The notes under the pieces: model-generated | Told to the model about the DNA's origin: nothing | Seen by the model: only the letters and a program-made list of their open reading frames with translations | Databases searched by the model: none | Made by a program: the position numbers and the translations under genes | DNA from: Rhytidiadelphus loreus | Taxonomy: Eukaryota; Streptophyta; Bryopsida; Hypnales; Hylocomiaceae | Reading direction: 5' to 3' | Assembly (NCBI GenBank): GCA_947034895.1 | Contig: OX344763.1 | Span: 61,895,093-61,959,092, forward strand | DNA: 64,000 bases | In this document: positions 2,511 to 30,239 of the stretch, piece by piece | How the letters are laid out: each line of letters begins with the position of its first letter | Numbering within the stretch: position 1 is the stretch's first letter

Positions 2511-2978
2511 ATGTAAATGATAATCATACACAAGCGTAGACATTCATTGGCTTTTGAGATGATATAAAGGGTTTATATACATAATCACTCTGGCACTCTA
2601 ATATCGTCTGTGCTAATGCATAATATTTCTAAATTTTTGCCCTCTCGTATCTTCAAATCAATGATACCTTTGTGTTTTTTACTGCTAGGTAGGAATGTTC
2701 GATAGATGAAGTAATAAATTTTTTTATTATTCTTCTAGGGAATGCAAGGATGTTAGATTGAATTCTATTTTGTGTTTTTGTGGTGCTAATTCTTCTCATT
2801 TTCACTACTTTAGTGTAGGTGGATAGATTATTATACATGATTACAAAATTGTTTACAATTTGCCCTCCAGTCGAGGGCACTTTGGTCCTGATTTAGTCAA
2901 TGTATCGCACTTATTTATTATCCTCGCCTCGAGGATACTCACAGTAGTATTAATTCATTGGTGTTCTTTCACGCGCAG
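2511..2978 (+). other. Probable intron or leader before the DUF7869 exon
   Basis: AT-rich sequence ending in a pyrimidine-rich tract and CAG at 2976-2978, directly before the first good start codon of the next gene. It behaves like the 3' end of an intron; the donor is not identified. Confidence 0.4.
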
Positions 2979-2979
2979 A

Positions 2980-5775
2980 ATGGATACTTCAGATGCTAAC
3001 GAGTTTACAGTTCTAGTGCCAACTTTGCCGCCGGGTGTCGCTCCCTGCGAAGGATTTTCTCGACCTTCTTGGTATACCAAATGCGTCACATTCAAGAATG
3101 AAGAGGGGGTAGAGGTGGCAAAAGGAATTTGTCATAGTGTTGATGTAGATCTCGTCATTGACATGGACGGACAGCCACTTGGTGATGACCGAGTTGCAAT
3201 TCAAATTGTAGAGTCTTTGTATGAGGCAGATGTTCCGTCGGAGTGGATGTGGTCCATGCACTCTTGGCACATTTCAAGGGTCTACCTCAATGGTGCCAGC
3301 TTATATGATCTCGAGCAAACGCATCTCTTCAATACTGCTGTCTCTTCAAACGGTTTGAGGCGGCGTGTTCGGACTGGAGTTCGATCCTACGAAAGCTCAC
3401 GTGAGAGGGTTGAGCCTACCAATCTCCCAAAGAAAGAAGCCCTCCTCAGAGAGCAAGCAATTGCTGATGTTTCTAGTATGAAATGTTGCCAGAAGAATTG
3501 CTTGCAACCATTTCCACGTGGGCAGATTCAAGCTGTTCGGTCTCTACTTCATATTGATGGTGGAGTGTTCTGGCGCAAGTCACGTCTGCTTGACGTGCAC
3601 AAGCAAACCCACACTAATTCCAATGGAAGGGACATGATCACATTGGCAAACCATGAAATTTGTTCAGTTGTTTGGTGTGCCATCCATGGAGTATCGAAGG
3701 CTACCTTTTATAGATACAAGAAGATGGCAAAAGATGACCAGAAACCGGAGCATCATGGCAACCTTGGAATGAAAAAGCCTCGGACACACATTTTGCAAGC
3801 CACAGCAACTCTTCGATTATTAGTGGAGAATGAAGCAGATACGATGCCCCACAAGTCGAGGACCCTTGAGTCTGGGGAGAAAGTCCCCTCCATGGTCCTA
3901 CCGTCTACATTTCGTTGGAAGGACAAGTTGACACAGATCAACAATGTGAATTCTTCTCTTCAATTGCAACATATTTCGGCTAGTGGTTTGAGCAACATTC
4001 GACGTCAATCTTTTCCAGAGTATGCTCCGAAGGCTAGAGGAGATAGTTTTGCTCGTTGTGGAACCTGCGATAGATATAGACAACTCAAGAGTGCTTGCAC
4101 TCCACGTTCACGAGCGCAAGACGTGTGGTCTAACAAATTGAGAGTGCACCTATCGGGACAAAAGGCGCACAGGGACTTGTACTATGGAAACCGTTCAATG
4201 TCCGAGATGTATCCTGACAAGGTTCTGACTATAATCCATGACAAGATGGATCACTCCAAGACTGCTTCCCCTCATTACTCTCACAAGAGTAAGGGAAATG
4301 ATTCTTTCATGAAGATGCCTATCGCTGTTACGGGCATGATTGCTCATGGTCATGGAGATGTGTGTTATGCACACTATAGGTTGGATATCTTCCCAACAGA
4401 CTTCAACCATACTATTGGATCCATTGCAAAATTATTGCGAGATCTAGAGTCCCAACCAAAGCATTCATCTCGCCAATTGTTTGTAGGAGGAGAGCGTTCT
4501 GATTTGACACAAGCTTTGTTAATAGGCTCAGAGATTTGTACGGACTCTCTTGGTTCCCCCCCTGAAGTATTGGCGGAAACTCAACCTCTTCCTCCAACAT
4601 TGACTCTTCAGCTTGACAATGCTTCTGGCGACAACAAGAATCGGTGGGTTTTTGCATTTTGTTCTCTCCTTGTCTATAGAGCTATTTTTCAAGAGATATA
4701 CATCAATTTCCTCATTGTTGGACACACTTATGAGGACATTGATGCTCTATTTGGTCGTTGGAGCACCAAATTGAAGACGAATGACTACCCAACACTTCCA
4801 AGGTTGATGAAGTCTTTCATGGATTGCAAAACACAACCCGTGATTCCTCATCTCATTGAAGAGGTTCCTGATTTTAAGCAATTTGTGGATGGGTATTTGC
4901 ATACAGGCAATGATTCTCTACAGGGTCATTCTCAAGCGCAACAGTTCAAGTTTTATAAGGATTCTAATGGGTGGCCATTGATGCAGTACAAGATCCTTTG
5001 TACTGATGTGGATTAGTTGCCAAAAGAAGGTGGGGGGATTCGCTTGTGGAAGGAGACAATAGATGGGTACCCTAAAGTACCGAGGGGTAGTCCTCTACCT
5101 TTGGCACCGCAACAAATGCGTTGCTTTGAAGAGATTTGCAAGGGTTTAGATGGGTACATTGCATTGTGGGGGGCAATGGGAAATCAAGACTTATCTGGCG
5201 AGTTTAGGAGGAAGAATGAGCCGGTGCGGAAATATTAAGAGGGTGTGAGAAGTGCTCTCAATGCTCCGCTTGTGGTGTATGAGACATTGCGAGATGGATT
5301 TTGGCCAAATTCTCGAATTGCCGATGAGGTGGAAGACCAATATTTAGATGATGGCACGATGCGTGAGGAGTTTGCGGAAGATGCAACTTTTATTGGTCGC
5401 AGGCGTGATCGTCCACCTCCTTCATTTCGTGTTGGCCGTGATGTATATGCAGGTTACTTAGTTGTTGTGCGCCCCGCTGACGGTGACCTCCGTCCATTTT
5501 GGCTTGCTCGGGCTCTAACAAATCTTAATCCAGATCCAGGGCATGTCAATTCGATTCAACTTCAATATTGGACACCTACGTCTTTTCATCACACCAATGA
5601 AGAAACATATGCTGGGTGGGACACAAAACAAGGGAATTCTTGGTGCGAGGATAAGGCTATCTCTCCGAGTTGGACGCATACAGACTGCATTATGACTACT
5701 TGGAAGCCACGTTTCAAAGAAGGCACTTCTGATCCAAAAGTTAGAATTCCCAAAACACAAATTGCTATCATCTAG
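2980..5775 (+). pseudogene. DUF7869-type transposon-like protein, broken by two stops
   Basis: One reading frame of about 930 codons runs from ATG 2980 to TAG 5773, interrupted by TAG at 5014-5016 and TAA at 5236-5238. The frame does not shift across either stop, so these are point nonsense changes. The part at about 4600-4800 has the hallmarks of DUF7869, a domain found in repetitive plant and animal proteins: LQLDNASGDNKNRW followed by VGHTYEDIDALF. A cysteine pair (RCGTCDRYRQL) at about 4050 and a paired CC earlier suggest metal binding. The last ~100 residues (from about 5430) have a FWLARAL...IQLQYW pattern like a small beta-barrel reader or chromo-like domain. The start was chosen because it follows a splice-acceptor-like CAG; an upstream GTG at 2860 is in frame but reads through intron-like sequence. 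Catalytic function is not established for the family; a transposase origin is inference. Confidence 0.75.
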
Positions 5776-7307: not shown

Positions 7308-7317
7308 CACTTTACAC
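7308..7317. repeat. Left target-site duplication of the giant MULE (CACTTTACAC)
   Basis: A 10-bp direct repeat, CACTTTACAC, occurs here and at 23903-23912, each exactly 20 bp outside the inner edge of the conserved GTGAG of the terminal inverted repeat. MULEs typically duplicate 8-11 bp. The outermost few TIR bases match poorly, so the exact end could be off by some bases. Confidence 0.65.
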
Positions 7318-7380
7318 CAACGTTGCTAGCGCGTGAGTGTAGAGCGGGGAGCGGGGAATGAAGAGCACGGAGCGGGGATT
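7318..7380 (+). repeat. Left terminal inverted repeat of the giant MULE
   Basis: Reads TGCT, then GTGAG, then GAGCGGGGAGCGGGGA, ending GGAGCGGGGATT. The reverse complement of 23847-23902 has the same order: TGCT, GTGAG, repeated GAGCGG blocks, GGAGCGGGGATT. The number of GAGCGG(G/C)GA blocks differs between the ends, so the repeat is imperfect. Confidence 0.75.
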
Positions 7381-7439
7381 TAAGAAAGAATAGGAAATAA
7401 TTAATGAAAAAAATGGGAAATAGGGGGAATATGACATAG

Positions 7440-7880
7440 AATTTGAGTATATTTTGTGAAATTTGGATGCAAGTTAGCGTAAATTAAAAATAAGTTCAAT
7501 GATAAGATGGATGAAAATAAATAGAGTCAAAGAAAAAAAAATAGGAAAAATACCATGCCAAAAGTAGATGGAAGTAGAGTAGGCGGGGATGAAAGCATAT
7601 GATAGAAATGGATGAAAGTTGTTCACTATTGAGATGAAAATAGATGAAAATTTAGGATGAAACATTTGGATGAAAAATCGTGAAAGAGGTAGATGGATGA
7701 AAATTTTGGATGAAAATATTGAAAATTTGAATTTGGATGAAAAACTTGGATGAAAATATTGAAATTATGAAGTTGGATGAAAAATTTGGATGAAAATATT
7801 GGAAATAGGAATTCGGATGGAAAAAATGGACGAAAAATTTGGGTGAATATATTGGATGTACATTTTGGATGGAAGTAGTG
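7440..7880 (+). repeat. Left subterminal GATGAAA repeats
   Basis: Roughly 25 copies of (G)GATGAAAA/T-type motifs, many spaced 15-30 bp (for example GGATGAAAATATTG at 7680-7750). The right end of the element has the same motif on the opposite strand. These are typical of subterminal transposase-binding repeats, by inference. Open frames on the minus strand here are compositional. Confidence 0.75.
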
Positions 7881-8642
7881 CACAATGAAGATTAACGTAG
7901 ATGATAAAAGTTTAAGGGTTTAGGAATCTAGGATCATGTTGAAAGTAGATTAATAAAATGGAAGACATTACCTCCTCGTTACGAAGACAATACTTTGAAA
8001 AAGTTTAGGACTGAAGTACTCGTTCACGATGGAATTAAATTACAGAATTGGATGAAAGTAGTTCCACAATAAATTTAGAATCCATCAAAGATTAGGGTGA
8101 ATAATGGCCTACATTAAGGCGGTTTGCATAGCACAAAGGATTTAGAGTACCTTCACATCTCTACGACAATATATGAATATTTCGAACTCAATGGAGGAAG
8201 AAGGTACCACTGCAAAAAGTCTACACTTGTAATGTCTGATCTACAACTGCTTACAGTAAGTACCCTATAACCGTGGTGGCATGGCAGATTGCAGAGTGGC
8301 AGCTACAATTCAGGAAAACTGCAAAAGACTTATTTTCAATGTAATTCACCGAACTACTTGAGACATTGCCAATGTGCTTGCACACTAACAATGAAGATCC
8401 CGTTTGAAGGTACACAGTCATTTCAGATATCACTGAATTTATTAGAGAAATGGATGGATGTCAGAACATGTAGAAAATCAGAAGATGACTATGAACATCT
8501 ATACATTAACAACATGCAAAAAGCAAATAGAATGCAAGCTCAATGTATCGAAGTAGTAGCCCTTGTAGTCTCACTACATTTTCATTCATATATGTGAAAC
8601 GAAATCAACATACTGACAACATTATCCATGCTTCAAATAATC
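7881..8642. other. Spacer and 3' flank of the MULE transposase gene
   Basis: AT-rich non-coding DNA with a few scattered GATGAAAGTAG motifs near the left edge. A 102-codon frame at 8289-8597 has no recognisable domain and no splice context. Confidence 0.5.
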
Positions 8643-11600
8643 CTAATTTGATCTCAAATGGTTTAGGATTCCGCTAAGAAGCACTCGTTTGACCTCATTG
8701 AAACTAAATGTTGAAGCATGGATGAAGACATCTGAGGAAGATTGAAGGTTGCAGATGACATTGAGAACAAAGTACAGATGCTTGCAATTTGACCAAGCTC
8801 CACGCTTCCCCAAGCACTTTAGCTTCATTTCCTTGAAATAAGGGCAGGTGCAGTCCGGAAATGAGGAAATAGTAAGCATGTACTTCTCAATCTGGGGCTC
8901 TATTCCCGAGTCCATTGCTACTATGCATCCAAAACCAGGGTGAGGGACCATAGTTACGCTTACAATGCGGGCATTCAGAGTTAAGGCCAATGCACAGTTG
9001 TTTTGGTGTTTTGTTGTGGGTGCCTTTGGATTTCGACGAACGACCTTCCCAGTCCGAGTTGTAGAATGTTCATCAGCTGAATCTGGATTGTGATAATTAC
9101 GCACAATTTCAATGCTCGCTTCTCCACCAAACAACCTCCATGGGGAAATGAGGTGGCATTGTGGAAGTTGGAAACCGGCCGCTTCAAGTGCTAGAATCTC
9201 GGCCATCGTCAATTGGGTGCCTAATTTCACCGGCCAAATAACAGGAACAGGTGGTACAAAGAGCACCCATTTCCGTCGTGATCCTTTGACACATCGTTCA
9301 ATGTCGTCATTGCAAAAGAAAAATTGCATACGATCATTACGATTTTGCTTGTAATTGACCATCATACCTGTGTATGTCGGAGCCGCTGTTGCAGTGTTGT
9401 TTTGCACTATTAGAGCTGTGCATTTTTTCTTTGTCATTGCCTGAAGAGCAAAGCACGCCTTTGCTGATGTTTTTGGTAGTCGTGAAATGTGCCACTGCAT
9501 CTCATCACACATGCTTTCTTGAACTGCCGATACATGAGTCAAATTTAGAATTGTAGTCTGCCTCAAATTCACCTCCACTGAAAATGCGTCTGGAACTTCA
9601 ACATCTTCACTTGGAGTAATGTCCTCCACTATTGTGTTCAAATTTTGAACACTTGAACTCGCTCTGAAGGATCTCGTTTGCCGACGAGGATGTGAGAAGT
9701 TCACTTTGTCCGGTCGGTGTGAGTCGTACTCGCATCCAAGTGGCATGTCTGCTTTCCTCTTTTGTGATCCAAAAACTTCTTGACCTTCGAGATGAGGTTC
9801 TCTGTTGATGAAAGCTTCAACACTTGGAATAGACGACAGAGCTTTAGTTAGTGATTTCGGGTTACCAGTTCGCTCTGCCGAACGTTGGGCAACTCGTAAC
9901 AATAACTCTTCCTTCCCCGGTCCTGTCCCTCCTTCATTTCCCTTTAGATATTGGTGATATTTGACCATTTGCATGAATGCTCTGACAAAGTCATCGACCG
10001 TAGCTACGTATAAGTCGTTTCCACGCTTCCCAGATTGCTGAAGCCACTTATTGTGCATAGTTTCCGTAAGGTTGCAAGATGGCATTTCGGCTTTCTCGGA
10101 TGCAGTTAGATCCTGAAATCACAGGGGTATATACATGTGTCAGCTCTACATGCGAGTCTTCCCAGGATGCCAAGAAAAAGCATAAATATATTTGTCAGAG
10201 ACCACAGAAGACTGAAGACTATGACCACAGATGAAATGGAAAAACGCGAGTTTTAATTAGTCAACGTGCAGAGCGTTGAGATTACTGACCATCGTCTCGG
10301 GACCGAGACGTTTGTTATGGGGAACCTACGTCTGCACCACATCTAACCGAAGTGGAACATTTGACAATGTAACAACAGAACTAATTTGACAGAAGGCATA
10401 ACAAACATTGTTACAAATGAAGGAGAAAACAGTGAGGAAATTACAAGTTCCATGAAGCCTCCCCATTGGCGATAACGGAAATGCTAGAACGAAAGCCACA
10501 ACTCTAGTTTGTGCAATCCTTCCACCGTGGTGGCACCTGATGACAACCACCACGCCCTGATGGCTAAGTACCGTTCCTCAGATTGTTGCATTGAAGTGGC
10601 GTTCTTGTACTGCTTACATAGCAGACGATGTTGATCCTGCAAGTCTCCTCGAATATCTGCCTTTGTATGCTTTTCCATGGATTGAGTCCAGTGAAAAAGG
10701 CATGTCCTTTCACGGTTGAGCATTGGTTCGGAAATATCCCCCGATCCATACACCGTCCTCACCGCATTCCAGTTTGCTTGCGCGCTGTCTGCCATGAAGC
10801 CCTTGAATTGAATCCTTGTCACACCATGTCGCTCTACAACTGAATTGAGGTTTGTTCAAAAAAGAACTTGTGCTGCGCAATCCTCAGATTGCATGTCACA
10901 ACAGGCGATTGTCATCACACGACAGAATCCGGAGTCATAAACGTGACACGCCATGGTCGTCCAATCTTTTACACGCTTCACGTGATCAAACATGATCCAT
11001 GCTTCCTGAAGGTCTCCTCCCGATTGCATTCGCTTCACCAAATCGACTCCACTCCTTGGCCCCACTTCAGACATTTTGAAAAGGAATACCTTATCTATGT
11101 CGGTCCCTTGACCTGGGAATTTGCTCTCCTGCACAAAAGCCCATGTGCTTGACCCCCTCAACCTAGTAATGCTATCAATCACTCCGAACTTACGCAAGAA
11201 CTTGAAGGAAGTTACCTCATTCCTTATGCTCGGGGAACTTAAGTATTTGCATTTCTCAAGTACAGGAACAAGGGATGCAAGGTCCATACTCTTCGGCTGC
11301 ATTCCGTCAGGACATAGAAGAAGACCTCCTAACAGCTCCTTTGTTGCCTCTAGGACAATAGCGGAATTCGTGGCAGAAGGAGTCCGTTCCAACTGCTCCC
11401 CAATAAGAGTTCGTGATATGGATTTCATATCTCTGAGTTCACCATCCTTAACCGGATGCGCGTGATGACCAAGATGGACGTATGCCTTACTGAAAGTGCA
11501 CTTGCCTGCAACGTAATACACGTGTACATTACAACGCGCCACACAAGCAGGAGGCTCCTTACAAATCTTGCATACAAGCGTGGAACCAGGCGGATGTGGT

Positions 11601-12538
11601 TGTCCGACATCTAGTGGTAGCGGAGATAGTCCTTCCCACTCTAATTCATTTACATCTCTCATTCTGTGAACTCGATGAAGGAAGTCACATTCAGTATTCA
11701 CACAACGAAGATGACCCACACAAACGGATTTGCAGAACGACAAGCCCATTGGATTGACTATATTCGTAGTGACAGTCTTCAACCAGACGTGTCCATCGTA
11801 ACGCTTGTCCATCCCCGACATTTGTTTCGCTGAAGAGACGGTACTACTGTTATAGAGAGCTGGCAATTCAAATATGACATCGCCATTAAACGATGGAGGC
11901 AATACTGTCACTTTATGAATTTGAATACTACCATAGTCTAGTTTCGATAAGATGTTCCTACATCCTTTCAATGTACGCAATGTCCTCAAGCAATTGACCA
12001 CAGATGTTCTTGAATCACCCATTGGACCGTTGTCTGGTGACTCTGTAGACTCCTCTACCGTAAAAGAGGGAACTGACTCAACCAAAGATGGAGTCTTCAT
12101 AGCGGAGCGTGTTGCTGGAGAATTTCCATCAGAATTAGAACTCAAGTTCGTAACCAAGTTTGAGAAGGTCTCTACTTTGACATTGATCAATGACGGAGAC
12201 TGAAATCTGGAAGCACTGGACCCAGGCAAACTTCCCGTGTCCATAGGCAATGATGGAAAGACAGCAGGAACTCCGTATGCCCGATATCGTCCAGGTCTCA
12301 GGTTCCACAATCTATTCTCAGAATCAGTAATCGGCATTTGCCCAATAGTGTGAAGAAGGGTACCAGAGTCTTTATCAAATATATCTTCATCTACATGAAT
12401 GGAATCTTGCAAAAAATTGAATCTTAGCGATAGTCTCAATGCTGAAACAACAGCAAGACCATCTACACCTACAGGGAAACGTACAGGTACACCGTTATCT
12501 ATAGCCGTGACGACCACCATTTCCAGGAGGTCTTCCAT
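8643..12538 (-). pseudogene. MULE transposase with SWIM zinc finger, two exons, nonsense-damaged
   Basis: Exon 1 runs from ATG 12538 down to about 10445; exon 2 from 10112 to the stop at 8643. The exon 2 acceptor (TTTCAG before GATCTAACTGC) is clear; the exon 1 donor (CTT then GTAATT) is my best choice. Order of domains: an N-terminal PB1/ubiquitin-like stretch (residues 1-95); a Ser/Thr-rich linker; a Cys/His cluster (CVGHLRCVNTECDFLHR, CKICKEPP, ending LGHHAH) of the GCM/WRKY-like type seen in MULEs; then the DDE transposase core with candidate D (IMFDHVKR), D (GFMADSAQANW) and E before CLFHW (RERTCLFHW). Exon 2 gives NLTETMHNKW and, at about 8760-8860, a SWIM finger (CTCP...NCKH). In-frame TGA at 10856-10858 and TAG at 10484-10486 interrupt the core without a frameshift; both positions suit a lost tryptophan codon. 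Transcribed away from the cargo gene. Confidence 0.85.
10293..10310. other. 18-bp palindrome CGTCTCGG-GA-CCGAGACG in the transposase intron
   Basis: Perfect 8-bp arms around a 2-bp centre. It lies in the predicted intron of the MULE gene. The same GTCTCGG-NN-CCGAGAC core recurs at 13773, 13943, 14113, 16861 and 19837, always in non-coding DNA of this element. Confidence 0.8.
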
Positions 12539-13561
12539 GACACAAGGACGTGAAGTAGAGGTTCAATGTCCAAGAAGATGATCAAATGGAAAAAACAACC
12601 AGGGCGACTACTCTAAGACACAAAGAAGAATAAATCCACCACTGATATATATTGATGACAACAATTCGAACGGACATATATAATCCTCAATTCAAAATTC
12701 ACAGTCATCATATTTCATATTTAGTGGTTGTTCCATGAAGTGGCGGCAATGTGAATTAATAAGAGTAACTTACTATCATATTTTTGTCGGCCTCATTCCT
12801 GGCATTTCATAAGGGGATAATGCAGTTGACCGACTTCATGTATTTACCAAGATCCTACTATCATAGCACTGACATGACCGGTCATCTTAACTTCACAAAT
12901 TGTGAAGACAATCCATGAATAATAATCGGACCGCCACACTTGTAATCCATATTGTTTATTAATATTAATGTGTAACTGAAAATGGTCATTATATATTATG
13001 AAAAAGGAAGCTGAAATACGAAGTGAACCTCAGTAGTATGCACTATAATAATGATATTCTGAATAGTAATTGATATGTCAGAAACATCGGTAATACACAA
13101 TATAAGAATAAAGATTGCGATATTGTAGAAGTAGAATAAAAATATCCGATCAATTATTCTGAAAAGACATACAATTCATACTGTCGAGTAGCTAAATTAT
13201 TTGGATGCTTTGCCGATAAGGTATACAAATGAATTAAATCACCCATAGAGTGTATTCAAAATCAAGCAATTGGAATGGTGTCTAGTGTAACAGTCGTCCG
13301 ATTTAACCTTCTCAAAGCGACCTGATCACATTCATCCAGTCGTAGTGCGGCAGACCATCATCAAAACCCTAATATTCTAGTCAGCAGAAACCGGAAATCC
13401 CCAGATTCCGAAGGACCTTCCCTACCCGGACTGGCACGCCGGCTGTCCTTACACCGACTTCCGACCTCCAGCAGCACTTGTGCGTGAAATCTTCCAAGAC
13501 TGTGAACATCAGTAGTCGGAGCGCAATTGGGGCATTGCTTTCATCATCAGTAGTTGGTGTC
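12539..13561. promoter_or_regulatory. Shared divergent promoter region of the giant MULE
   Basis: About 1 kb of mostly AT-rich DNA separates the start codons of the minus-strand transposase (12538) and the plus-strand cargo gene (13562). No long frame occupies it until the GC-rich leader at about 13380. Promoters for both genes are expected here; I cannot place a TATA box with confidence. Confidence 0.5.
13364..13372 (+). promoter_or_regulatory. Telo-box (AAACCCTAA) upstream of the cargo gene
   Basis: AAACCCTAA lies about 190 bp before the predicted ATG at 13562. In plants this element is common in promoters of genes active in dividing cells. With a single site, chance occurrence is possible. 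Confidence 0.35.
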
Positions 13562-14744
13562 ATGGCGGACCGAAACCTTCGGTCGAACAAAGGTCAGGCT
13601 GGATTGACGGCAAGCTTGGAGGGGGGACGAGATGCCCCGAACCCTACGCGTGAGGTATGTCCTGCAAAACCCGCCCACGCCCCAGTGCATTTTTGTTATT
13701 TTGATTTCCTGTTTGGATTTTGTTTTTCGGGGAGGTGGCTGCATGAGCACACCCCCACCGTGGAGCCAGCTAGTCTCGGCCCTGAGAGGAGCCCAGTGGG
13801 GCGCCCGCACTTGCACAGGGTCGGCGTGAGGGGAATGAGCTGCGCCCTCACCTAGTGCATTTTTGTTATTTTGATTTCCCGTTTGGATTTTGTTTTTCGG
13901 GGAGGTGGCTGCATGAGCACACCCCCACCATGGAGCCAGCCAGTCTCGGCCCCGAGAGGAGCCCAGTGGGGCGCCCGCACTTGCACGGGGTCGGCGTGAG
14001 GGGAATGAGCTGCGCCCTCACCCAGTGCATTTTTGTTATTTTGATTTCCTGTTTGGATTTTGTTTTTCGAGGAGGTGGCCTCCCGTGCACACCCCCACCG
14101 TGGAGCCAGCCAGTCTCGGCCCCGAGAGGAGCCCAGTGGGGCGCCCGTACTTGCACGGGGTCGGCGTAAGGGGAATGAGCTACGCCCTCACCCAGTGCAT
14201 TTTTGATTTTTTCCCGAGTGGGGTGCCCTCACTTGTGCTTGGAAAGTGATTGAATGGGATTGACAGGTCCGCTCTCATTATTATTAAATGTAATATCTAC
14301 TTATGTTTATCTCAATTAATTGTTGTGCAGGGGGGTATTCTCGCGGTTGAGGAGCAGACAGGTGCGGATGTTCAAGCGGCCATTAACGTACTGGTGTCTC
14401 CTGAGATTCGCCCGTGTTTGGAGAAGGAGGTCACGCTAGCCGAGGTTGCATCAAAGCGATCGGGTGACCACCTACCTCCACTTGTAAGGCCTCTTCGGAC
14501 GTTTACCCAACATGGTGATAGAGTAGTGTTCAATAGTGTTGAACGTGTTCTGACCTCGGGATCATCCATTGGATCAACCGATGAGAGAGACTAGATATCC
14601 TTACCGCGACAGAGTGTTGAGTACTGTACGTGTGTTCACGATGATTTAGAGGTGACATCCGCAGATGACACGGATGTGGACATCTTCATTTGGTATTGTG
14701 GGCATTATAGATCACTCAATCAGAAATGCGAGTGTGGGATTTGA
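13562..14744 (+). CDS. Upstream exons of the cargo gene (or a separate small Cys-rich protein)
   Basis: Exon A is 13562-13654 (31 codons from MADRNLRSNKG), with a good start context (GTCATGGCGG) and a GAG/GTATGT donor. Exon B starts at 14331 after TTGTTGTGCAG; both junctions are phase 0 and join in frame (..NPTRE then GGILAVEEQTG..). Exon B runs to TGA 14742 but has an in-frame TAG at 14592-14594. Its end is cysteine/histidine-rich (YCTCVHDD ... WYCGHYRSLNQKCECG), suggesting metal binding. No known family recognised. It lies 130 bp before the first exon of the ParB-methyltransferase model on the same strand, so these are probably that gene's N-terminal exons, but I could not find a convincing donor linking exon B to 14876. 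The intron 13655-14330 is filled by the 170-bp repeat. Confidence 0.5.
13681..14210 (+). repeat. Exact 170-bp tandem repeat, three copies plus a partial
   Basis: CAGTGCATTTTTGTT recurs at 13684, 13854, 14024 and (partial) 14194, spacing exactly 170 bp, with only a few substitutions between copies. Each full copy contains GTCTCGGCCC(C/T)GAGAG, a near-match to the palindrome elsewhere in the element, and a GC-rich second half after a T-rich first half. It sits wholly within the predicted first intron of the cargo gene; the long open frames on both strands here are shadows of the repeat. Confidence 0.9.
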
Positions 14745-14875
14745 CCGTGGATGTGATTTATGTATGACACTGGTTTTTTCTATGAAATTTAAACCGGGAC
14801 TTTCATAGAACAACAAGAACAACTATTCGTTATTTTATTCTAATAATTATGTTTGTTATTCTTACTATGCTGCAG

Positions 14876-17800
14876 ACCATCATTGAGTCTCAAACATTGA
14901 TTATGAGCACACCTACTAGTGATGCTATTGTTGAGGTCGCACAACAGCCAGATGTGGTCTCCGATTCAGATTCAGAAGATGTCGATATCCCTGGTGTGCG
15001 GAAAGATGCTTTGGAGGATGACATAAGGAAGTCCCAGAAATTGGACACCGTTTCAATTTTGTATGGCTTGAGGTTGACATCAACGGATGCATCACGCATG
15101 AAGATCCCGTTGTGCAGGCTCGTGCCCATGCCTATAGTTCGTCCTACGCTGGCATGCGACTTGACTTTGCTCGAAAATCAGTTCACGGGGGGGTACGAAG
15201 AGGGAGCCAGGGTATTTTACGTTTCCATCTCAAACGAAGTTGGGGACGGTGAGGTTTTCTCAAATGCAGAGAAGATTGAATGGGGAGAACACTGGAATTC
15301 CATCAATGACGAATTCAACAGCTTCTTGAGGGCCGATCCTATTCTCAAGCATTTGGTGGATCAGAAGTTTTTTATTTGTGATGGAAACCACCGAAGGATT
15401 GCGTGGATGAACCACATTACTCGCCTACATGCCACGGAGAGGAGTTGGCACATCAGCGTCGACTCTATCGTTCTTGATACAAGAGGTCGTATTGGGGTTG
15501 CTATGCAGGCTATGCACGACATCAACAAGTGAGCATTCCATTCCAAATAGTTCTAATCACTATTTTCATTTGTTTCTTTTATATATACACACTTTCTCTC
15601 TATATTGATTTCATGTCTTGACTCTTTTCATTTATGATCTTCAAGCATACCGAAAACTATCATGTCAAGACTAATCTCGTGCACACTCTTTTCCGCGTCC
15701 AAAAATACGGGATGATGGAGCTGGATAAGTTCACTGAATTGTTATCCGCCGAAAAGTTAACAATTTGTAGGAACAATACTCGAACGAAATGGTATACTAT
15801 GCCATTGGAGGTCTTCACCTCATTTATCTTTAAGGTATGCAATTTCTCATCACAGTATTCAATTAGAACATCCTATCATATGGTTTCCTTTTTCATTTCT
15901 AATGGGTGATGTGCATTCTCTCAGCAAGAGATTTCTGCAGCGGCTGAGGTGGCCATTCGTAAACACAAGGAGGACACTTCGCCTGAAGAGGTGACAGCGG
16001 ACGGAGTTGCCACGGCTATGAGGGTCTCTATCAAAGATTCAAATGAGAAGTACCAGAAGAAACTCTCGAAGATTGTGGCAGTAGCAAACCCCGCTCTTGG
16101 ACCTGATTGGCTATTGGAGGTATACTTGACTAATTACTATTTCCAGATACTCTGTGATGTATTTCGTGAAACTCTAAGATGAAAAGTACGATTAAATAAT
16201 ATTCAATTGGATTTCTGCAGATCGAACGGCATTGGAATCTGTTTTCCATTCCAGAGTTAACTCTGGAGAAACTGCAGATGATGGCCATAGCTAATGCCAC
16301 TACGGAATCCAAAGTCAAATGGTTGAAGTGGATGAATGCATCAGGGCCAACTAGAGAGGCGCGTCGATTTCCACCGAGGCCTGTAAACGAGGAAAAATTG
16401 GCTTTGTTTCTGGCTAGGGCTTGCTGGTACTCGGGGGTATGAATTTCGAAAATACTTTTTGACTGTCCTTCTGTAATTTATGTGTTCTTTGATCTCAAGG
16501 TTTGTTTACATTCACATCTGACTAATGTACATTTGTGCATAACAGTTGGAGGAGGCAGCATCTGAGTTGCTGGATTCGGTGATGCGGGCAGATAATATTC
16601 CTGTGAACATGTCTGTTCCAACTGAGCCGGAAACTCTGAAGGAATATATAGAGGGTTGGAGAATGAAGGTTTGGGATATTGCCTATACGGGAATGTTTAG
16701 AGGAGCAAACGCTTACAAGAAGTCTGACAACTTCAAGGATTACAAAGGGGCAATGCTTGCGGTTCATCGCGTCATATACAGGTATTCTGTGGTCCTTCTT
16801 TCATGTAATTTTCGGATCCATTCAATCCTTTTGTGCAAGCATTGGGAACTTCAATTGGTAGTCTCGGGGCTGAGACTCTAATATTCAGGGGCTGAGTCTT
16901 GCAACATGGTTTGCTTGACTTTTATTCATATTCCTTTTTTTCCTTGAAATTGTTCTTGGATCTTCAATTTCTGCTGGAAAGGATTTGGTCCTCTCATTCA
17001 ATTAATCAGGTTGGAGGACTTGAAATTGGTGTAACTAATTGTAGGGCATTCGATTCTGACATCTTTCATCGTGGTCATTTTTCATCTTATCTTCATAGGT
17101 ATTTCAAGTTCGAGTTGTACGCCAAGAAAGCCATAGCCAAGTCGGACTTGCCACCGTTCTTGACCACCTGGTTGGATAGAGCTAGGGATGATTGCATGTT
17201 CTCACCCTGGCAGCTTAGAAATTGGACGACTCCACATCTTCAAGCTTGCCCGTGGTACATCGAATGCAACTTGGGATCCATTCCACAAGAGGAGGCACCT
17301 TTGTTCAAGACACTCAAGGAAACACCGGTGGCGGAGCCTGAGTTTGATGAGTTTGCCGGTCTTGATCCAGAAGCACGAGCCAAAGCCATTGCGAAACGGG
17401 ATGCATTTGACAAGAAGAAAGTGGAGAGGCTGGAGGAGGCAAAGAAGAAGACGGAGGATATGAAGCTCAAGAGATTGGCCGCCAAGGCTGAAAAAGAGCA
17501 AGAGAAGGCAATCAAGAAGGGCAAGAAGAGGAAGGCGGAAACTCCTTTGCAGGAACCGGCTACAAGTGCTGCTGATGTGAAGGACACATCATCTAGCTTT
17601 TCACTCACTCAAGACCGCCTTGTGCATGGTCTCACTCCAACGGTTCATCACTTGGATTCCGACCATGCCATTGACGAATGCATTCTCAATATATCGTTGC
17701 GTGGACTTACCCGTGACAAGAAGGCCCTAGAAGCCGTTGAAGCCTTCTTATCCATGGTAAATTTGTTGCCTTCTTCCTTTTAGTTCATTTTCTGTTCATT

Positions 17801-19240
17801 AATTATGTTTCTCCATACTGAATTATATATCACTTCTCACTACTTTCTTGTTGTTCCATTGTCATGGTGCAGCATGTAAGCGACAAACAACGATACTTCG
17901 ACGGAGTCTTGACTACAGAGTCCGCAGTTGACTTGATTATTGTTGATGTACCTGAAGGACTCCATGTGCCTACCATATCTGCTCCTCCTGCACCTATTCC
18001 TACGTGGAATCAGTTTTCATCGGACTGGTTGATTCCAATTTTTGACTTTGCGGGTGGTTATTTACACGACAATGGAGCACTTCTCGTGATGTACCCATCT
18101 TCCTCCAAAGCGCACAGAAGTCAACTTCTAGGATGTTGCAAGGAATATGGATTCAAGATTCTTTGCGATTGGTGGGGTATGAACCATCTTCACTTGACAT
18201 CGGCCATTGATCCCAAAAAAACGGTAATAGCCATTTCACTTTATCATTTTCGTCTTCCTCCAAAATTTGCAACTTGCCTTTATTAATCCATGACTTCTCA
18301 CTTGTTCCAGACGTAGAGGTTTTCAATCTCTCTTGTGGTCAAGAAGTCCGGCCCCACAACTGAGGAAAACTTCCCATTCCAGCATGTTCCCTCTCATGCA
18401 AAGGTTGGCGTCACCGTGGGCAAGGATGACTGCCTTAGGAACCTAAGTATGCTTTGCCGAAGAGGTCACCATGAATGGTGAGAAACCATGGCACGGTCCA
18501 AGAGAGAAGGCCTCTGCTTTCATGGCGATGCTTGTGGAAGGGTGTTACGAAGCCGAATCCGTTGTCGTTGACTACACGGCAGCTACAGGTATATCTTCAA
18601 GAGTATTACATACTTAGTGCAATCATCTTCAGTTTGTCAAATTCGGGTGACATCTAATGAATGTATGTCTAACATATCAGATATGCAGGTACTAGCATTC
18701 TCGCATGTCGAGCCACTAGGCGTCATGTTTTAGCCTTCGAGGAAGATCAAGCTATCTTTGAGGCCCTAATCAAACCGGTGATTCGTCAAAATCCGGTTCT
18801 TTCGGCCGTAGCCACACGTGTCGTTGATGCCAGAAGTGATATGGATGAGGATGAGGTGCCGGCACAACAGATTGTGAAAACTTCATTCTTCAGTAAGTAA
18901 GTCTTCATTTCAACTTATTCATTGAATCATATCTTTGAATATTATATCATCTTAATCTAATTTCTTATTTACTTCATTGTGTAGGCAAGCGGCAAAAATG
19001 AGATCCGAATCACATGTTCCGTTCTTTCTAAACCCTGCCTTCTTTCCAAGCCCACCAAAGCCGTTTGAACTTCCCGAATACGTTGAATCTCTTTCTAGGG
19101 ATTACGTTGCCATCGACCCTAGGCCTAGTTGTAGGGCAAATCTAGTAGATCTTCGAGTTCTCCAGTTTATTGATGACATTGTTGTGGAGTCAGATATGGA
19201 AACATCAGACAGTGAGGGCAGTTCCAAATCATTTGACTAG
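14876..19240 (+). pseudogene. ParB-like domain fused to a permuted DNA methyltransferase, ten exons
   Basis: Predicted exons: 14876-15528 (first Met codon of clear sense 14903), 15646-15834, 15925-16119, 16221-16436, 16546-16781, 17099-17756, 17873-18223, 18311-18588, 18689-18896, 18985-19240; about 1,070 codons. All introns are GT-AG and most phases agree. The first exon has FFICDGNHRRIAW, the DGxHRxxA signature of ParB/Srx-fold domains. Exon 6 is a Lys/Glu-rich coiled coil (about 17360-17540). Exon 7 has LIIVDVPEGLH, in the place of methyltransferase motif IV ((D/N/S)PP(Y/F)), then a GALLVMYPSS strand. Exons 8-9 give EKPWHGPREKASAF then VVVDYTAATGTSILACR, resembling the conserved Pro-Lys loop and AdoMet-binding motif I (DPFxGxGT). 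Order IV before I is that of the beta class of N6-adenine/N4-cytosine enzymes. Damage: phase mismatch at exon 1/2, TAG at 18314-18316, a frameshift near 18440-18470. Motif IV is DVPE, not DPPY, so catalysis is doubtful. Confidence 0.7.
16860..16877. other. Near-perfect palindrome AGTCTCGG-GG-CTGAGACT in a cargo-gene intron
   Basis: One mismatch in 8-bp arms. It lies in the predicted intron 16782-17098 of the methyltransferase gene. A partial second half (GGGCTGAGTCTT) follows about 15 bp downstream. Confidence 0.7.
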
Positions 19241-20459
19241 GGTGACAGTCAGACCATCACATTCCCTTATTTTATATGCTTGTCTGTGATGCGGATTCCT
19301 TTTTTCATCTATTCCATTTGTTTTGTCTATTGGTTTGCATCAATGGTACTTTATACTGGTCATGATCGAATAGACATTACATATTTGTTGTTCCGCTTCT
19401 TATTACTATGCCTCCGGTAATTCAGCTCCGCCATAGTCAGGGTTCATTTCCGTATACCTTCTAAGTCCTCAATCTCGTTTCTCACTTGTTATCCTGAAGT
19501 TCTTGCTAGTGGTTGTGATGTAACAAACAAATTCAAGGACCCTAAACCCTAATTCAAAATTGAAACTGTGACTCAGTTCTGCATTCTTTTTTTATATCAT
19601 TCATGCATTCTTCTGTAATTTGACTAATTCTAGTAATCTCTCGCTTATTTGATTTGTTGAGTAGGGGGGATAATTGCAGACACTGTAATTTAAGATGATA
19701 CTAGAGTCCTTCGCGGGGTTCAAGATTTGTCGATCATGATCAATGAGCGTTTTCTTCAATTGCTGTTTCTCGAATTTTTGTCCCCATCAATGAATCATTG
19801 ATTGAATAGAGCAAGCCGAATGCATTTGAAACATTGGTCTCGGTCCCGAGACCTGGTCCTTCCCTGAACATAGTCTGCCCCCCTAAGAAAATTCCAGGCT
19901 TTTACTTGATTTCCTTTACTAATAAGTTACTGCCCTTCAATGTGAATTCATGGACTACACGATGACAAATATTATAATTATCGTAATTAATTTACTTCTA
20001 GAAGCATATTGTACTTTATCAATATCATATTTGGAGATCAATGATATTCCAATAATTTTCATAAGTGGTCAATGTGGAATCATGCAACTTTGCCTACCGC
20101 TATAGTTATAGCATTATTCTATTATTGCAATATTCCAGAAAGATCAGACTATCATGGAAACCCTTATCTCTGTGGTCATGTGTGTGGTTGTTGTCATCTC
20201 GTTTCACAAGTCTATCTTATTCCCCTCCTAATATCTGTGTCTGGCCGCTCTCGGGTTTAGATAACCCCAGGCCAACCTCTTCCAGGGTCTATACTCCCCT
20301 TCTCCACCACCACCCCCAAACCGGACTCAAGAATATACGCTACCCTAAATCAACCTTGCCAAGGGTTTATGCTCCCTTCTGCAGTCCTATTCGAGGCTCT
20401 AAGCTACCTCTGGTAACCCCGGTCGGCAGTGCGTGTGCTGTAGCGCAGTATTCCCACTA
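19241..20459. other. 3' flank of the cargo gene
   Basis: Non-coding. Includes CCCTAAACCCTAA at about 19541-19553 and one palindrome copy. A 131-codon frame at 20065-20460 has no recognisable domain and leads into the GC-rich array. Confidence 0.5.
19836..19853. other. 18-bp palindrome GGTCTCGG-TC-CCGAGACC
   Basis: Perfect 8-bp arms around a 2-bp centre, about 600 bp after the cargo gene's stop codon. Same core as the copy in the transposase intron. Confidence 0.8.
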
Positions 20460-21710
20460 GGGATTTGTACTGCCCCGCGGCAATCCAGCCAGGGATTTGA
20501 GCTACCCGCGGAAGCCCTCCGAGAGAGGTTGCACTACCCCTCGGCAGCCCTCCCAGGGAGGGGGCGTTGCCCCTTACCAGCCCTCGCCAGGCAGGTTGCG
20601 CCGCCCCGCGACAGCCCCTCCTAGGGAGGTTGCGCCGCCCCGCGACAGCCCCTCCCAGGGAGGTTGGGCTGCCCCGCGGCAGCCCTCCCCAAGCAGACTG
20701 CACTGCCCCGCCGCAGCGCCTCTTGGGGACGGCGCTGCCCCACGGCAGCCCCTCGCGGGGAAGCGGCTGCCCCGCGGCAACCCCTGGCTGGGGCTGTGCT
20801 GCCTTTGGGCAGCAACTCGCAGGGTCTGTGCTGCCCCGCGGCAGCGCCTCGCGGGGACGGCGGTAGCCCCTCACGGGGTCTGTGCTGCCCCCTAGCAGCC
20901 GCTTGCGGGGGGATTGTGCTGCCTCGGGGCAGCCCCTCGCGGGGACGGCGTTGCCCCGCAGGGTCTGTGCTGCCCCCCAGCAGCCGCTTGCGGAGGGACT
21001 ATGCTGCCTTGGGGCAGCCCCTCGCGGGGACGACGCTGCCCCGCGGTAGCCCCTCACGGGGTCTGCGTTGCCTCGCAGCAGCTGCTTGCGGGGGGACTGT
21101 GCTGCCCCGCAGCAGCCTCTCGCGGGGTTTGTGCTGCCACGGGGCAGCTCCTCGCAGCGGGACTGTGCTGCCGCATGGCAGCCCCTAGCGGGGTCTGGGC
21201 TCACAAGCGGGGGGACTGTGCTGTCGCGGGGCAGTTCCTTCCAGAGGGGATTATACTGCCTAGCGGCAGCCTCTCGCGGTGTCTGTGCTGCTGCGGGGCA
21301 GCTCCTCGCAGGGGGACTGTGCTGCCCCGCGGCAGCCCCTCACTGGGTCTGTGCTGCTGTGGGGTAGCCGCTTGCGGGGGGACTGTGCTACCACGGGCCA
21401 GCCCCTCGCAGGGACTGTGCTGCCGCGGGGCAGCTCCTCGCGGGGGGACTGTTCTGCCTTGGGGCAACTCCTCGCGGGGGGACTGTGCTGCCCTGCGGCA
21501 GCCCCTTGCTGGGGCAGCCGCTTGCGAGGAGACTGTACTGCCTTGGGGTAGCCCTTCACAATGATTGTGCTGTGACGAGGCAGCCGCTTGCGGGGGGCCT
21601 GTGCTACCTTGGGCAGCCCCTCGCGGGGGAACTGTGCTATCCGAAGGATGCCCCTCGCGGAGGAACTGTGCTACCTTAAGGCAGCCCCTCGCGGGAGGTT
21701 GCCCTAAACC
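20460..21710. repeat. GC-rich tandem array of GCTGCC-CCGC-GGCAGC units
   Basis: About 35 degenerate units of roughly 33-40 bp, each with a hairpin-forming GCTGCC(N4)GGCAGC core and a CTCGCGGGGGGACTGT linker. GC content is far above the rest of the window. Open frames on nearly all six frames (up to 266 codons on the minus strand, rich in Arg-Gly-Ala-Ala-Gln) result from the lack of AT-rich stops and are not credible genes. Confidence 0.9.
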
Positions 21711-22075
21711 CGCGGGTTTAGAAGCCGAGGATTCTATTTTGCTACAGTTTTTTATAGATTACAATAAAAAGAATAAATCTTTTGAAATTTCTAATGACTC
21801 GGGTCAATAAATCCTGCAAGTTCGACATGCGCGGTTCCATTGCGCGGTTAGGAGCCGACAATTCTATTTTGCTACAGTTTCGAATTGATTATAGTAAAGA
21901 GAATAAATCTTCTGGAATTTCTAATGACTCGGGTCGATAAGTAGTTCTTACGAGAAGATAAGGATAGTGATTTTTGTTCTCCTAATCCTGCAAGTTCGAC
22001 AAGCGTGATTCCATTGCGCGGTTACGAGCTGACGATTCTATTTTGCTATAGTTTTTAATAGATTACAATGCAGCA
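21711..22075 (+). repeat. Three diverged direct repeats next to the GC array
   Basis: The block GATTCTATTTTGCTA(C/T)AGTTT begins at about 21729, 21858 and 22034, preceded by a GCGCGGTTA(G/C)GAGC-like segment and followed by TTTCTAATGACTCGGGTC in the first two copies. Non-coding. Confidence 0.75.
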
Positions 22076-22159
22076 TTGTATTTTCCAGTTTTCGGCTTGC
22101 ATATCGCTTTCTTCAAATAGCACTGTAACCTTCACTTCCATTTTCATTATTCTTGGTGA

Positions 22160-22260
22160 ATGTGGGTCCGTGCATCGATGCTCCTTGTGCCACGTGTTGC
22201 AATGTTGTAGCTTCTTCAAATGATAAGGTTATCTTTAAAGCTCTAATAGCTCTGCGGGGA
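22160..22260 (+). pseudogene. Second, decayed methyltransferase motif-I fragment
   Basis: Translation of about 22164-22253 gives GPCIDAPCATCCNVVASSND then KVIFKALIAL. Exon 9 of the cargo gene gives GTSILACRATRRHVLAFEED then QAIFEALIKP. Spacing is the same, with about half the residues matching, and the nucleotide match is clearest at GATAAGGTTATCTTTAAAGC versus GATCAAGCTATCTTTGAGGC. This suggests a diverged partial duplicate of the methyltransferase 3' end. No intact frame. Alignment by eye only. Confidence 0.45.
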
Positions 22261-22468
22261 CTAACTGGCTGTAGTTTGTCGATAGAATTTGTGTGCCCCG
22301 GGGTCCAGACTATATATCTAGAGTTCTAGACGACACCACATATCCATTGTATGTTTTCTGAAGTCCTCGTTAACCAGTATGTCACTTTTTTCTTGACTCT
22401 TGTCAAGCCGACTACGTTCACAGTGTATACATCTTATTATGTAACATTTGGTTTTCATGTTTGTGTAG

Positions 22469-22596
22469 GCGGAGCAGTGTTCGAGCAATGCCTCAGTTGC
22501 ACAGGGCCTGCCAAAGCATAGGTCTTTGTATACCCAACTACAATGATTTTGCTACTGCTATACGAGGAAGAGATACACCTGGATATTTCCCCCCCT
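22469..22596 (+). pseudogene. Exon-like segment after the methyltransferase fragment
   Basis: A 128-bp open segment preceded by TTTGTGTAG and followed by GTGAGT, encoding RRSSVRAMPQLHRACQSIG and onwards. It stands where exon 10 would follow exon 9 in a duplicated methyltransferase, and its acceptor context resembles that of exon 10 (CATTGTGTAG), but I see no convincing protein similarity. Confidence 0.3.
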
Positions 22597-23419
22597 GTGA
22601 GTTGTACACCCCATTTGCTAAATACTTGCCTTTGTCTTCAATTACTTGGTATTGCACAATACGATCTTGAAGTAGGATCCAAATACAACAGTTCAGTATA
22701 GAGTAACTGAAGCTCAATTACATGTACATGAACGTATTCTTAGCAATGTTTATTCACGTTACTTGCTTGTCCAGGTTGTTGGTCCGCTTCCAGCTTACAA
22801 ACCGACTGTATAAGTTACATGTGCTGCTAGAGAGGAAAAATATCATACAAGAACACCATCTTCTAACATTCATCGTGCATTTTTTTCAGCCAAATGACGG
22901 AATTGTCCATTACAACTTTTGAATTTTTTAATTATAGTTCGACCCTGATCCCAACTCGCTTGATTTGAACTTTGTTTCCAAAAATTTTGCACAAAATTCG
23001 TTTTGTGATCTATCTCTTCTTCAATTCATTAGTTCAAGAGTAATAATAGCCAATATTGACATATGGCAAAGAAAGTGTATGATGAATGTTATAACATGGT
23101 GAGCTTAAAGATTTCAAGATGTATTCAATTCTGCAGTGTATTTATATTCAAATCTTTTGAAATTTGTTGAATCTTGGAAGTTCCAAGACATGTAGGTCGG
23201 GTTTCAAAAACCACCTATTTAATAAATTCCAAGGGCATGTATTGTATAGTCCTCGCAGTGTTTTCTTACAATGTAGCCTTCATTCTCTACACACAGTTCT
23301 CTATTGGACATGGAATTCCTTTTGGATTTTTTACAGCGTGCTATTCATGATTATGGTGTATGCTTTTCTTCACGGAGGAATCCTCTGTGATTTTCTTTGT
23401 ATTATTTAGCATCACTTAT
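22597..23419. other. Non-coding right part of the giant MULE
   Basis: AT-rich DNA with no recognisable gene. Short frames of 66-81 codons have no motif. Confidence 0.5.
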
Positions 23420-23800
23420 GCATGCTTTTAATCTCATTAGAAGACCCTACATTGATTTCATGCATCCAATGTCATCCATTATTTTCATCCACTTCCCCGA
23501 TGTACATCCATGTCTTCCATCCACTTTCATCATCTACATTCATCCATTTTTTTCATCCACTTTCATCATCTACATTCATCCATTTTTTCATCCACTTTCA
23601 TCATCTACATTCATCCATTTTTTCATTCACTTTCATCATCTACATTCATTCATTTTTTTCATCCACTTTCATCCATTTTTTTAAGCACTTTCATTAGTTT
23701 ACCTTCAATCCTGAACCCAAAACTTTTGTTCTTTCATAGAATTTTTTAACTTTCATAGAAATTTTCCTAAACTTCTGTTCCAATTATCATCCATTTTTTC
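23420..23800 (-). repeat. Right subterminal GATGAAA repeats (inverted)
   Basis: About 20 copies of TTCATCC/TTTCATC-type motifs, including a near-perfect ~45-bp tandem at about 23515-23660 (TTTCATCATCTACATTCATC). They are the reverse complement of the left-end repeats. The 80-95-codon frames rich in His, Phe, Ile and Ser are artefacts of the repeat. Confidence 0.8.
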
Positions 23801-23846
23801 CAATCTATTTGATCAAATATTTCAAAATAGTCTCTTCCCACTCACC

Positions 23847-23902
23847 AATCCCCGCTCCCTGCTCGCCGCTCGCCGCTCCCCGCTCACGTACCAGCATTCC
23901 CC
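23847..23902 (-). repeat. Right terminal inverted repeat of the giant MULE
   Basis: Read on the minus strand: TGCTGGTACGTGAG, then GCGGGGAGCGGCGAGCGGCG and GGAGCGGGGATT, matching the left end in order of blocks. Confidence 0.75.
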
Positions 23903-23912
23903 CACTTTACAC
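23903..23912. repeat. Right target-site duplication (CACTTTACAC)
   Basis: Identical to 7308-7317. Confidence 0.65.
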
Positions 23913-28500: not shown

Positions 28501-28655
28501 ATGACCTTGAAGTTTATTTTTGTCTTGTTAAGAAGTTAGCATCGAAATGTACAAATTGACTCAAAGTGATGTATTTAAAGAGGCTTCGATGAATCCCCAA
28601 GAAAACTCATAAAGAAAATGAAAAGTGAAAAAAGAAAGAAAATATAAATACCTTA
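25505..28655. repeat. Satellite-like tandem array of ~188-bp units
   Basis: About 17 diverged units. Each has CAAGTGCAATGCATGACC, TTGATTTTTGTCTTGTTTAG, a variable middle (AAATGGCC...GATGTA), GGCTT(C/T)GATCAATCCCC and GAAAAAGAAAGAAAATATTA. One unit near 27860-27940 is truncated. No open frame is conserved between units, so it is non-coding. Confidence 0.9.
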
Positions 28656-30239
28656 CCTCGGGTATGCAACTCCTATATTATATGCAGGGGTCATTGGCAT
28701 TAAAATAGCTTAAAGGATGGCTTTTGTAAAAATAAAATGGAATTAAAATGACCAAAATGTTGGGTGAAGACAAAATTAAATAAAATAGCTACAAAAAAAT
28801 TTGGGTTGCATATTTATTAAAAGAAAATCTTCATAGTGTATATGAAGAAAATGGACCACACCAACTTTGCAATATCCACTCTATGAAGATGTTGCAAATA
28901 CCAAGCACCAAACTTGGCTAAAAAATTCAGTTTGTGCTCAACTTTTTAAATGCTGAACTTTGATGACAACCAAATCTAAACAATGTGAAGGATTGAAGGT
29001 CATCAACATTTATTGATGCCACTATTGATAAAGCTCTAATTTTTCTACTTTTTGATCCTATATAAATCCAACACAATGGAAGGAAGATGAATAATATGAT
29101 ACTTCACTCTTTAGAATTGTAGATAATAAGATGCACCCTTGCTGAAAACTACACCAATATGTTGAATGTTCAAAAATAGACGTCAAGCAACAAGAATCTG
29201 TCTCCTAGAAAATTAAGTGTACAAATATAGCAAGTACTTCTTCAAATACAAAACAACTCATAATACTAAGGCAAATTTAATAAATGATCAAGATTGAGAG
29301 GGTAATTTAATTAACTATTCTACTTTCAATTAACATATCTAGTAGGTGAGTTTAGACTTCTATATAAGTTACTGAAACTACATCTACTCCATTCAACCAT
29401 CATGCTTGTGCAATTATCAAGAATAATATTGATTAATCTCACTTCCTCTAAGCTTAAGCTTGAGCTGATAAGTTCTTCCAGATGAGAGACATCATTGAGT
29501 AAAGTAGGAGGTCCACAAATTGACCATCTAATGGCTGATATTGAATCATATTAAGTTTTGGTGGTATTTTTGGAAGAAAACAAACAAACTTATATCTAAG
29601 CTGAACTAGATGTAATCTTTTCTGGAAAATATGTATCAATGGGAGTTTAAACAAGGTCACATTTATACCAACTAGAGATAGTACTAGACCCTAAAAGCAT
29701 TAAAATTCCATCCCTAAACTTCAAATCAGCATACAAGCCCCACATTTGGAACAAACAAATTCAGCAAACTTGAGAATACATAATTGACATGCAATGCCTA
29801 AACAAGCCCAACCATTAACCCCTCACCGCCCAAGGCCTAACCATTCAAAAAACAACCTTGCTCTTCAAGTGTTATAAGTCTAAATGTGATTAAGGTATGA
29901 AAATCTCAACCATATAATCTTATAGTGTGCATGTTGTAGATGGTGTAAATCAAATTTGGGGTCATTTGACCATATAGATTGAGAGATTATAATGTTTTAG
30001 TGTTGAAAAAAGATGCTGAAATTTTCCTAAAAACACCTTTGGAGGTGAAATTCGATTTCTAAACCTATTCAAATGAAAAAAACTTGAAACTACAAAGTGA
30101 TTTAGAAACAAAAGACAAACACTTTGATGGGGAAAAAATCATTCAATTGACTCATTGCGTTTGCAAAATTGTATTGAAATGTCAAAAAACAGTGAAAAAA
30201 GTAGCAAAAAAACACATCTATGGCTAAACCTACCTCTAC

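Follow-up and report, generated by a model that had tools for sequence, protein, structure and literature searches.

The locus analysed here is a stretch of 64,000 nucleotides from the genome of the moss Rhytidiadelphus loreus (C3:61895093-61959092, hereafter the window), and it holds a giant two-gene Mutator-like element (MULE) that contains a transposase gene and, divergently oriented, a gene for a ParB-methyltransferase-like protein (ParB-MTase). The element comprises the following features, given by window position.

7308..7317, unstranded: left target-site duplication, 10 bp, CACTTTACAC; such a duplication occurs in 14/14 elements
7318..23902, unstranded: whole element, 16,585 bp, a dead copy
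7318..7380, plus strand: left terminal inverted repeat, GAGCGGGG-rich
7510..8060, plus strand: left subterminal GATGAAA repeats, tandem core 7643-7871
8643..12538, minus strand: MULE-type transposase, two exons (12538-10445 and 10112-8643), from the predicted fold of a relative
13681..14212, unstranded: array A, a 170-bp tandem repeat in 3.1 copies between the genes, its unit varying by element family
14903..19239, plus strand: ParB-methyltransferase-like gene, 10 exons; the intact copy E4 encodes 1058 amino acids (aa)
15368..15409, plus strand: ParB/sulfiredoxin (Srx)-type motif FFICDGNHRRIAWM, from motif plus predicted fold
17945..17971, plus strand: variant methyltransferase motif IV, DVPEGLHVP
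18561..18588, plus strand: motif I, S-adenosylmethionine (SAM)-binding-like VVVDYTAATG, extending into the exon at 18689, as read from the translations of exons 8 and 9
20470..21695, plus strand: array B, a GC-rich minisatellite (32-34 bp) that holds nested inverted repeats; its unit is GGCAGCCCCTCGCGGGGACTGTGCTGCC
23473..23815, minus strand: right subterminal GATGAAA repeats, tandem core 23505-23679
23847..23902, minus strand: right terminal inverted repeat
23903..23912, unstranded: right target-site duplication, 10 bp

A first-pass annotation of these letters had proposed the boundaries, the inverted ends, the inverted GATGAAA repeats and the 10-bp direct repeat, and all four were borne out. 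The sequence CACTTTACAC occurs only twice in the 64 kb, at 7308-7317 and 23903-23912, each time abutting an element end. The inverted-end match pairs 7342-7380 with 23847-23885 (39 nt, 85% complementary) at a local alignment score of 55, above every one of 500 mononucleotide shuffles (mean 23.7, maximum 41). On the plus strand of the window, 13 of 25 GATGAAA matches fall within 7510-7789, plus one at 8051, and 9 of 21 TTTCATC matches lie within 23483-23667 on the right side of the element, so that the clusters on the two sides have opposite orientation. A further 23-nt inverted pair (87%), at 10294-10316 in the transposase intron and 19830-19852 downstream of the ParB-MTase gene, contains GTCTCGG and CCGAGAC.

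The window's own genome (407 Mb, 489 contigs) was searched with the first 83 bp (best 40 of 101 candidates) and the last 83 bp (best 40 of 245), and elements were defined by same-strand pairing of scored left and right ends. This gave 13 paired elements besides the window copy; the remaining 26 left and 26 right ends lie outside the count, and the total of at least 14, that is, pairs scored at both ends, is a lower bound. Sizes across the 14 range from 16.0 to 30.0 kb. All share the left terminus CAACGTTGCTAG and the right terminus CAGC(A/T)TTCCCC (E7 lacks one of the terminal Cs), each has a perfect 10-bp duplication just outside the termini with a different sequence at each, and none of the paired copies has the deviating boundaries that the annotation had named as evidence against itself. 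It had also called for empty sites: the joined flanks of E1 (best 40 of 2521 candidates) cross the junction unbroken at 38 other places with 86-94% identity, the other 2 matches being E1's own flanks. In other fetched sequence no match across the joined flanks was found for any of the 14 elements. E3 has landed in the fourth exon of a different, diverged ParB-MTase gene; part of its right flank matches that exon at 60%, and the joined flank continues as IERHWCSNIVPEMTLDKLQ (read by eye from the letters). The 30-kb copy (C5:41170804-41200769), within exon 4 of a diverged ParB-MTase gene, contains a 13-kb array of 118-bp repeats. No extra cargo was seen in those longer copies whose open frames or arrays were listed; these differ in length through their tandem arrays (in E3 a 118-bp unit is repeated up to 112 times), and E1 has an additional insert in exon 6. 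That the anatomy is real, exact and biologically meaningful we regard as practically certain.

Some MULEs lack terminal inverted repeats, and a SWIM zinc finger and a WRKY/GCM-type DNA-binding domain are frequent in the group. No Pfam match supported the MULE label for the transposase. The fold predicted for the catalytic region, from a relative, had as its top match the transposase ISCth4 (6xgx, 6xg8), the closest predicted-fold match and presumably an IS256-family enzyme, which indicates a Mutator/IS256-type RNase-H-fold DDE transposase. The assignment to MULEs, and with it the annotated transposase, stands because of this fold together with the 10-bp duplication in 14/14 elements, a length within the 8-11 bp of MULE target-site duplications (PMC6446971, in the part available). 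The moss element also has terminal inverted repeats (39 nt, 85% complementary), accompanied by subterminal inverted arrays.

In all 14 elements the transposase lies on the left and points leftward and the ParB-MTase lies on the right and points rightward. The annotation's claim that both genes are enclosed therefore holds for the pair as such, and the two genes do occur together between the ends, contrary to the case it had set against itself; neither gene, however, is intact in the window copy. There the transposase has two in-frame stops (10856-10858 and 10484-10486), and the ParB-MTase gene has lost its intron-1 acceptor and is frameshifted in exon 8, so the window copy is a dead element. 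Both genes are free of stops in 5 of the 14 copies (E3, E4, E7, E12 and E13; block alignment), and spliced models concur, although E7 has no ATG where E4 has its start codon. The 'TA' donor that the models show for exon 9 in all copies reflects a shift of the model by one base and leaves the joined sequence unaffected. Recent activity is shown by close element pairs with a synonymous divergence (dS) of 0.006-0.03, for which the ratio of nonsynonymous to synonymous divergence (dN/dS), 0.27-1.07, comes from few changes (pairs with E0 or E4).

Across the genome, 63 of 78 transposases (best 78 of 1524) lie within 50 kb of a ParB exon in divergent orientation (ParB exons best 150 of 1368), against a mean of 0.86 and a maximum of 4 in 200 trials of random placement. 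A divergent transposase accompanies 62 of the 71 closest ParB exons and 2 of the other 79, the latter number being small because the best 78 of 1524 transposases hardly cover those families. With the relative P0010 as query, 37 of 63 other-family transposases have a divergent ParB or exon-7 match (random mean 0.45, maximum 2; same-strand pairs 0), and a divergent transposase from this other-family set accompanies 29 of 77 more distant ParB exons, two of the 79 ParB rows from rank 72 on (80% and 93% identity) having been left out. Only 2 of the 15 lowest-ranked transposase rows are paired with a ParB-MTase, and a partner was detected in 0 of 8 rows with a split N-terminal match and a frame of 768-786 aa (e.g., C2:50558531-50560147). 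The pairing thus reaches other families without being universal. Four contig sizes (555475, 258601, 225379 and 9903) are common to both protein-collection match lists (120 of 238 and 120 of 189 rows), which suggests the same gene pairing in other assemblies. A second, diverged ParB exon (66%; C3:61885155-61885718) ends about 9.4 kb upstream of the window start.

In the intact copy E4 the ten exons of the ParB-MTase gene are separated by GT-AG introns and encode a product of 1058 aa. The predicted model of its N-terminal ParB/Srx region resembles ParB CTPases, and a conserved G-x-H-R-type motif accompanies the ParB/sulfiredoxin fold; about 500 aa separate this part from the methyltransferase-like part. 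Beta-class N4/N6 DNA methyltransferases have a motif IV of the form (D/N/S)PP(Y/F/W), with the SAM-binding motif I after it. In the moss protein a motif I-like sequence, VVVD(Y/C)TAATGTS, lies after motif IV; motif IV itself, at what we take to be the position of the canonical DPPY, reads D(V/L)PE in 24 of 24 copies read. The Pfam N6_N4_Mtase match is weak (E 0.084, 13.3 bits against a cut-off of 26.7). Of the annotated "DNA-methyltransferase" cargo, the family resemblance and the ParB part remain; canonical DNA methylation is doubtful given the variant motif IV. Because of that motif, a noncanonical modification or a noncatalytic role as reader or shield appears no less likely than ordinary methylation of N6-adenine or N4-cytosine. 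A search with the full-length spliced protein found no match, probably because of introns, since single-exon queries gave 238 and 189 relatives. Solved structures returned by sequence one chance-level row (E 0.37), tblastn against viral and GTDB contigs found no relatives, and scans of GTDB and IMG/VR contigs with short peptide patterns drawn from the ParB alignment yielded none, although remote ones may exist.

By the Nei-Gojobori method, over the 65 of 91 pairs with dS>0.05, median dN/dS is 0.079 (0.073-0.113) for the ParB-MTase and 0.29 (0.21-0.35) for the transposase. The ParB-MTase gene is held by strong purifying selection and is therefore a working part of the element, not a passenger. 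Its history differs from that of its surroundings: among four representatives (E0, E4, E7 and E11), dS is 0.34-0.90 for the ParB-MTase versus 0.16-0.24 for the transposase, within which it is 0.21-0.81 over the first 300 codons and 0.03-0.15 from codon 600. Identity is 86.6-91.4% in the left arm and 67.0-81.4% in the centre; the right 1.7 kb are 85.2-88.2% identical in three pairs that align separately, and 79.9-80.7% including the array in two others. The arms, being more alike than the centre, have thus undergone exchange or homogenisation between families, and the centre, which holds the ParB-MTase and the two arrays, is older.

The two arrays behave differently across families. The unit of array A is 170, 118 or 268 bp depending on the family, except that the best Tandem Repeats Finder (TRF) row in E9 has a 355-bp period and E6 has none. 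Array B, located by its 17-bp core, lies downstream of the ParB-MTase in 14/14 elements with 16-43 near-matches per element; the window copy has 30 on the plus strand (at most 4 mismatches), with none on that strand elsewhere in the window. In 12 of 14 elements the best TRF unit of array B (31-35 bp, rotated) matches 27-28 of the 28 positions of GGCAGCCCCTCGCGGGGACTGTGCTGCC, and the unit holds the inverted repeats GGCAGC...GCTGCC and CCCC...GGGG. That it stays so similar in families whose silent sites have diverged suggests a functional role.

Element copies also bear what looks like the mark of host silencing. Plant-type methylation of silenced elements leaves C>T changes at CG and CHG sites. 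When seven copies from one subfamily are compared, C>T or G>A accounts for 111 of 143 singleton changes in the transposase arm and 109 of 149 in the ParB-MTase, at a rate per site at CG and CHG 3.4-5.3 times that at CHH. This spectrum suggests CG and CHG methylation, hence silencing, of the copies. TTTAGGG-like repeats in the window and the CHG-context mutations are plant-type features.

We consider it somewhat better than an even bet that the ParB-MTase-like protein is an anti-silencing or self-marking accessory protein. Its N-terminal ParB/Srx domain would bind a nucleotide and aid loading of the protein on element DNA, for which the vicinity of the palindromic array B, just 3' of the gene, or the subterminal repeats are the likeliest places. 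The methyltransferase-like domain, which is the SAM-binding one, would then mark or shield the loaded DNA, allowing the two divergent promoters to evade host CG/CHG cytosine-methylation silencing. This working mode would be akin to that of VANC in VANDAL MULEs and of the TET/JBP cargo of fungal transposons, by way of another protein. A more specific version, to which we give a rather low probability, is a ParB-parS-like transposon system in which a nucleotide-switched ParB clamp joined to a catalytically rewired D(V/L)PE fold loads at a dedicated palindromic array within the element and, against CG/CHG silencing, gives the chromatin of the element's copies a shield or new marks, with gene and arrays forming a cassette older than the arms. 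Silencing of the copies would give the element a reason to resist, yet the mutation spectrum is no sign of success; conservation of array B could alternatively come from exchange with the younger right arm; and retained CpGs, which might point to protection of the array, were not seen, the observed/expected CpG ratio of array B (0.55-0.73, four elements) lying within the range of other parts.

Other explanations fit parts of this evidence. Motif IV has a role in methyltransferase catalysis, and its D(V/L)PE form, without the aromatic residue and first proline in all 24 copies, makes catalytic self-marking unlikely. On that reading the protein would, despite the altered motif, work as an N6-adenine or N4-cytosine methyltransferase that labels its own element DNA; the domain order (ParB, motif IV, motif I), the weak Pfam match and the binding and epigenetic self-modification proposed for similar algal proteins in the available part of PMC12477816 agree with such self-marking. 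An element of 16-30 kb may instead need help in the cut-and-paste reaction as such, be it in bringing its distant ends into synapsis, in nicking, in choosing a target or in coupling to replication. The gene's presence in all 14 complete elements, the repeats at both ends and the DNA nicking reported for a bacterial ParB-methylase (PMC5512222, as far as its accessible text goes) favour such a helper, which we nevertheless think quite unlikely: some related transposases have no detected partner, and the ParB-MTase does not share the history of the transposase, whose C-terminal part is far younger between families. MULEs often capture gene fragments (PMC13317346, accessible part), but a host or bacterial gene captured without benefit is very improbable and was rejected, as it is contradicted by selection on the ParB-MTase gene (dN/dS 0.08 over dS up to 0.9), by the 1058-codon open frame and introns kept in several copies, and by presence in 14/14. 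A chance grouping of two unrelated repeats whose ends happen to look alike, which might be entertained because the ends are GC-rich and just 85% complementary, is scarcely credible against exact duplications and boundaries in 14/14 and empty sites with one duplication copy, and was likewise dismissed.

Elsewhere in the window, two 1402-bp direct repeats (54198-55599 and 62599-64000), 99.93% identical, delimit a very young long terminal repeat retrotransposon (54198-64000, about 7 kb internal). Long inverted repeats (44243-45640 and 46628-48043, 95% identical) within 44036-49184 indicate a foldback or long-terminal-inverted-repeat element. A 718-aa open frame with DUF7869 (PF25273, E 1.1e-45) lies at 2860-5016, and a tandem array of 189/377-bp period at 25515-28656.

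The closest published counterpart is Sola1-1_Ec32 of Ectocarpus, a 21.5-kb giant DNA transposon whose 1104-aa protein with ParB-like and DNA-methyltransferase domains is encoded opposite to the transposase strand, and alongside which green and red algal transposons are cited as similar (PMC12477816). It is, however, a Sola-1 element rather than a MULE, the likeness of the proteins is one of described domains, and the available part of the account contains no selection, array or motif IV analysis. The VANC protein of VANDAL MULEs reportedly binds short motifs and causes methylation loss (PMC5735166, PMC10398659, accessible parts); VANDALs resemble the moss element in having an accessory gene, noncoding tandem repeats and silencing by host cytosine methylation, but VANC is not described there as a ParB or methyltransferase protein, and the moss protein's function is inferred. 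Several fungal DNA-transposon lineages carry a TET/JBP dioxygenase for which escape from silencing is proposed (PMC12730594, in the portion available), again a DNA-modification enzyme as cargo, although it is a 5-methylcytosine dioxygenase in other superfamilies. Bce_0392 of Bacillus cereus fuses a ParB-like domain to an adenine methylase (PMC5512222, accessible text), unlike the moss protein with its roughly 500 aa between the parts and its different motif IV. The first-pass annotation had doubted that this was a standard MULE and left open whether it had been described: no MULE with a ParB-MTase gene was found in open-licence papers, and the accessible text of PMC6446971 has no occurrence of "methyltransferase", but ParB-MTase accessory genes are in print for algal transposons. 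Given that precedent in Sola1, the element is no categorically new kind; as far as found in the open-licence literature, the MULE carrier, the variant motif IV and array B are new, and the idea of a ParB-MTase accessory is already published.

The wider question is how DNA transposons of very large size survive in plant-type genomes that carry heavy methylation. This family is abundant, includes young copies and has a dedicated, strongly conserved second gene along with a candidate target array, which makes ParB-MTase anti-silencing directly testable, and the consistent D(V/L)PE in a strongly selected methyltransferase-like domain poses a clear biochemical question. Such proteins in unrelated superfamilies, brown-algal Sola1 and the MULE here, would indicate a general accessory module.

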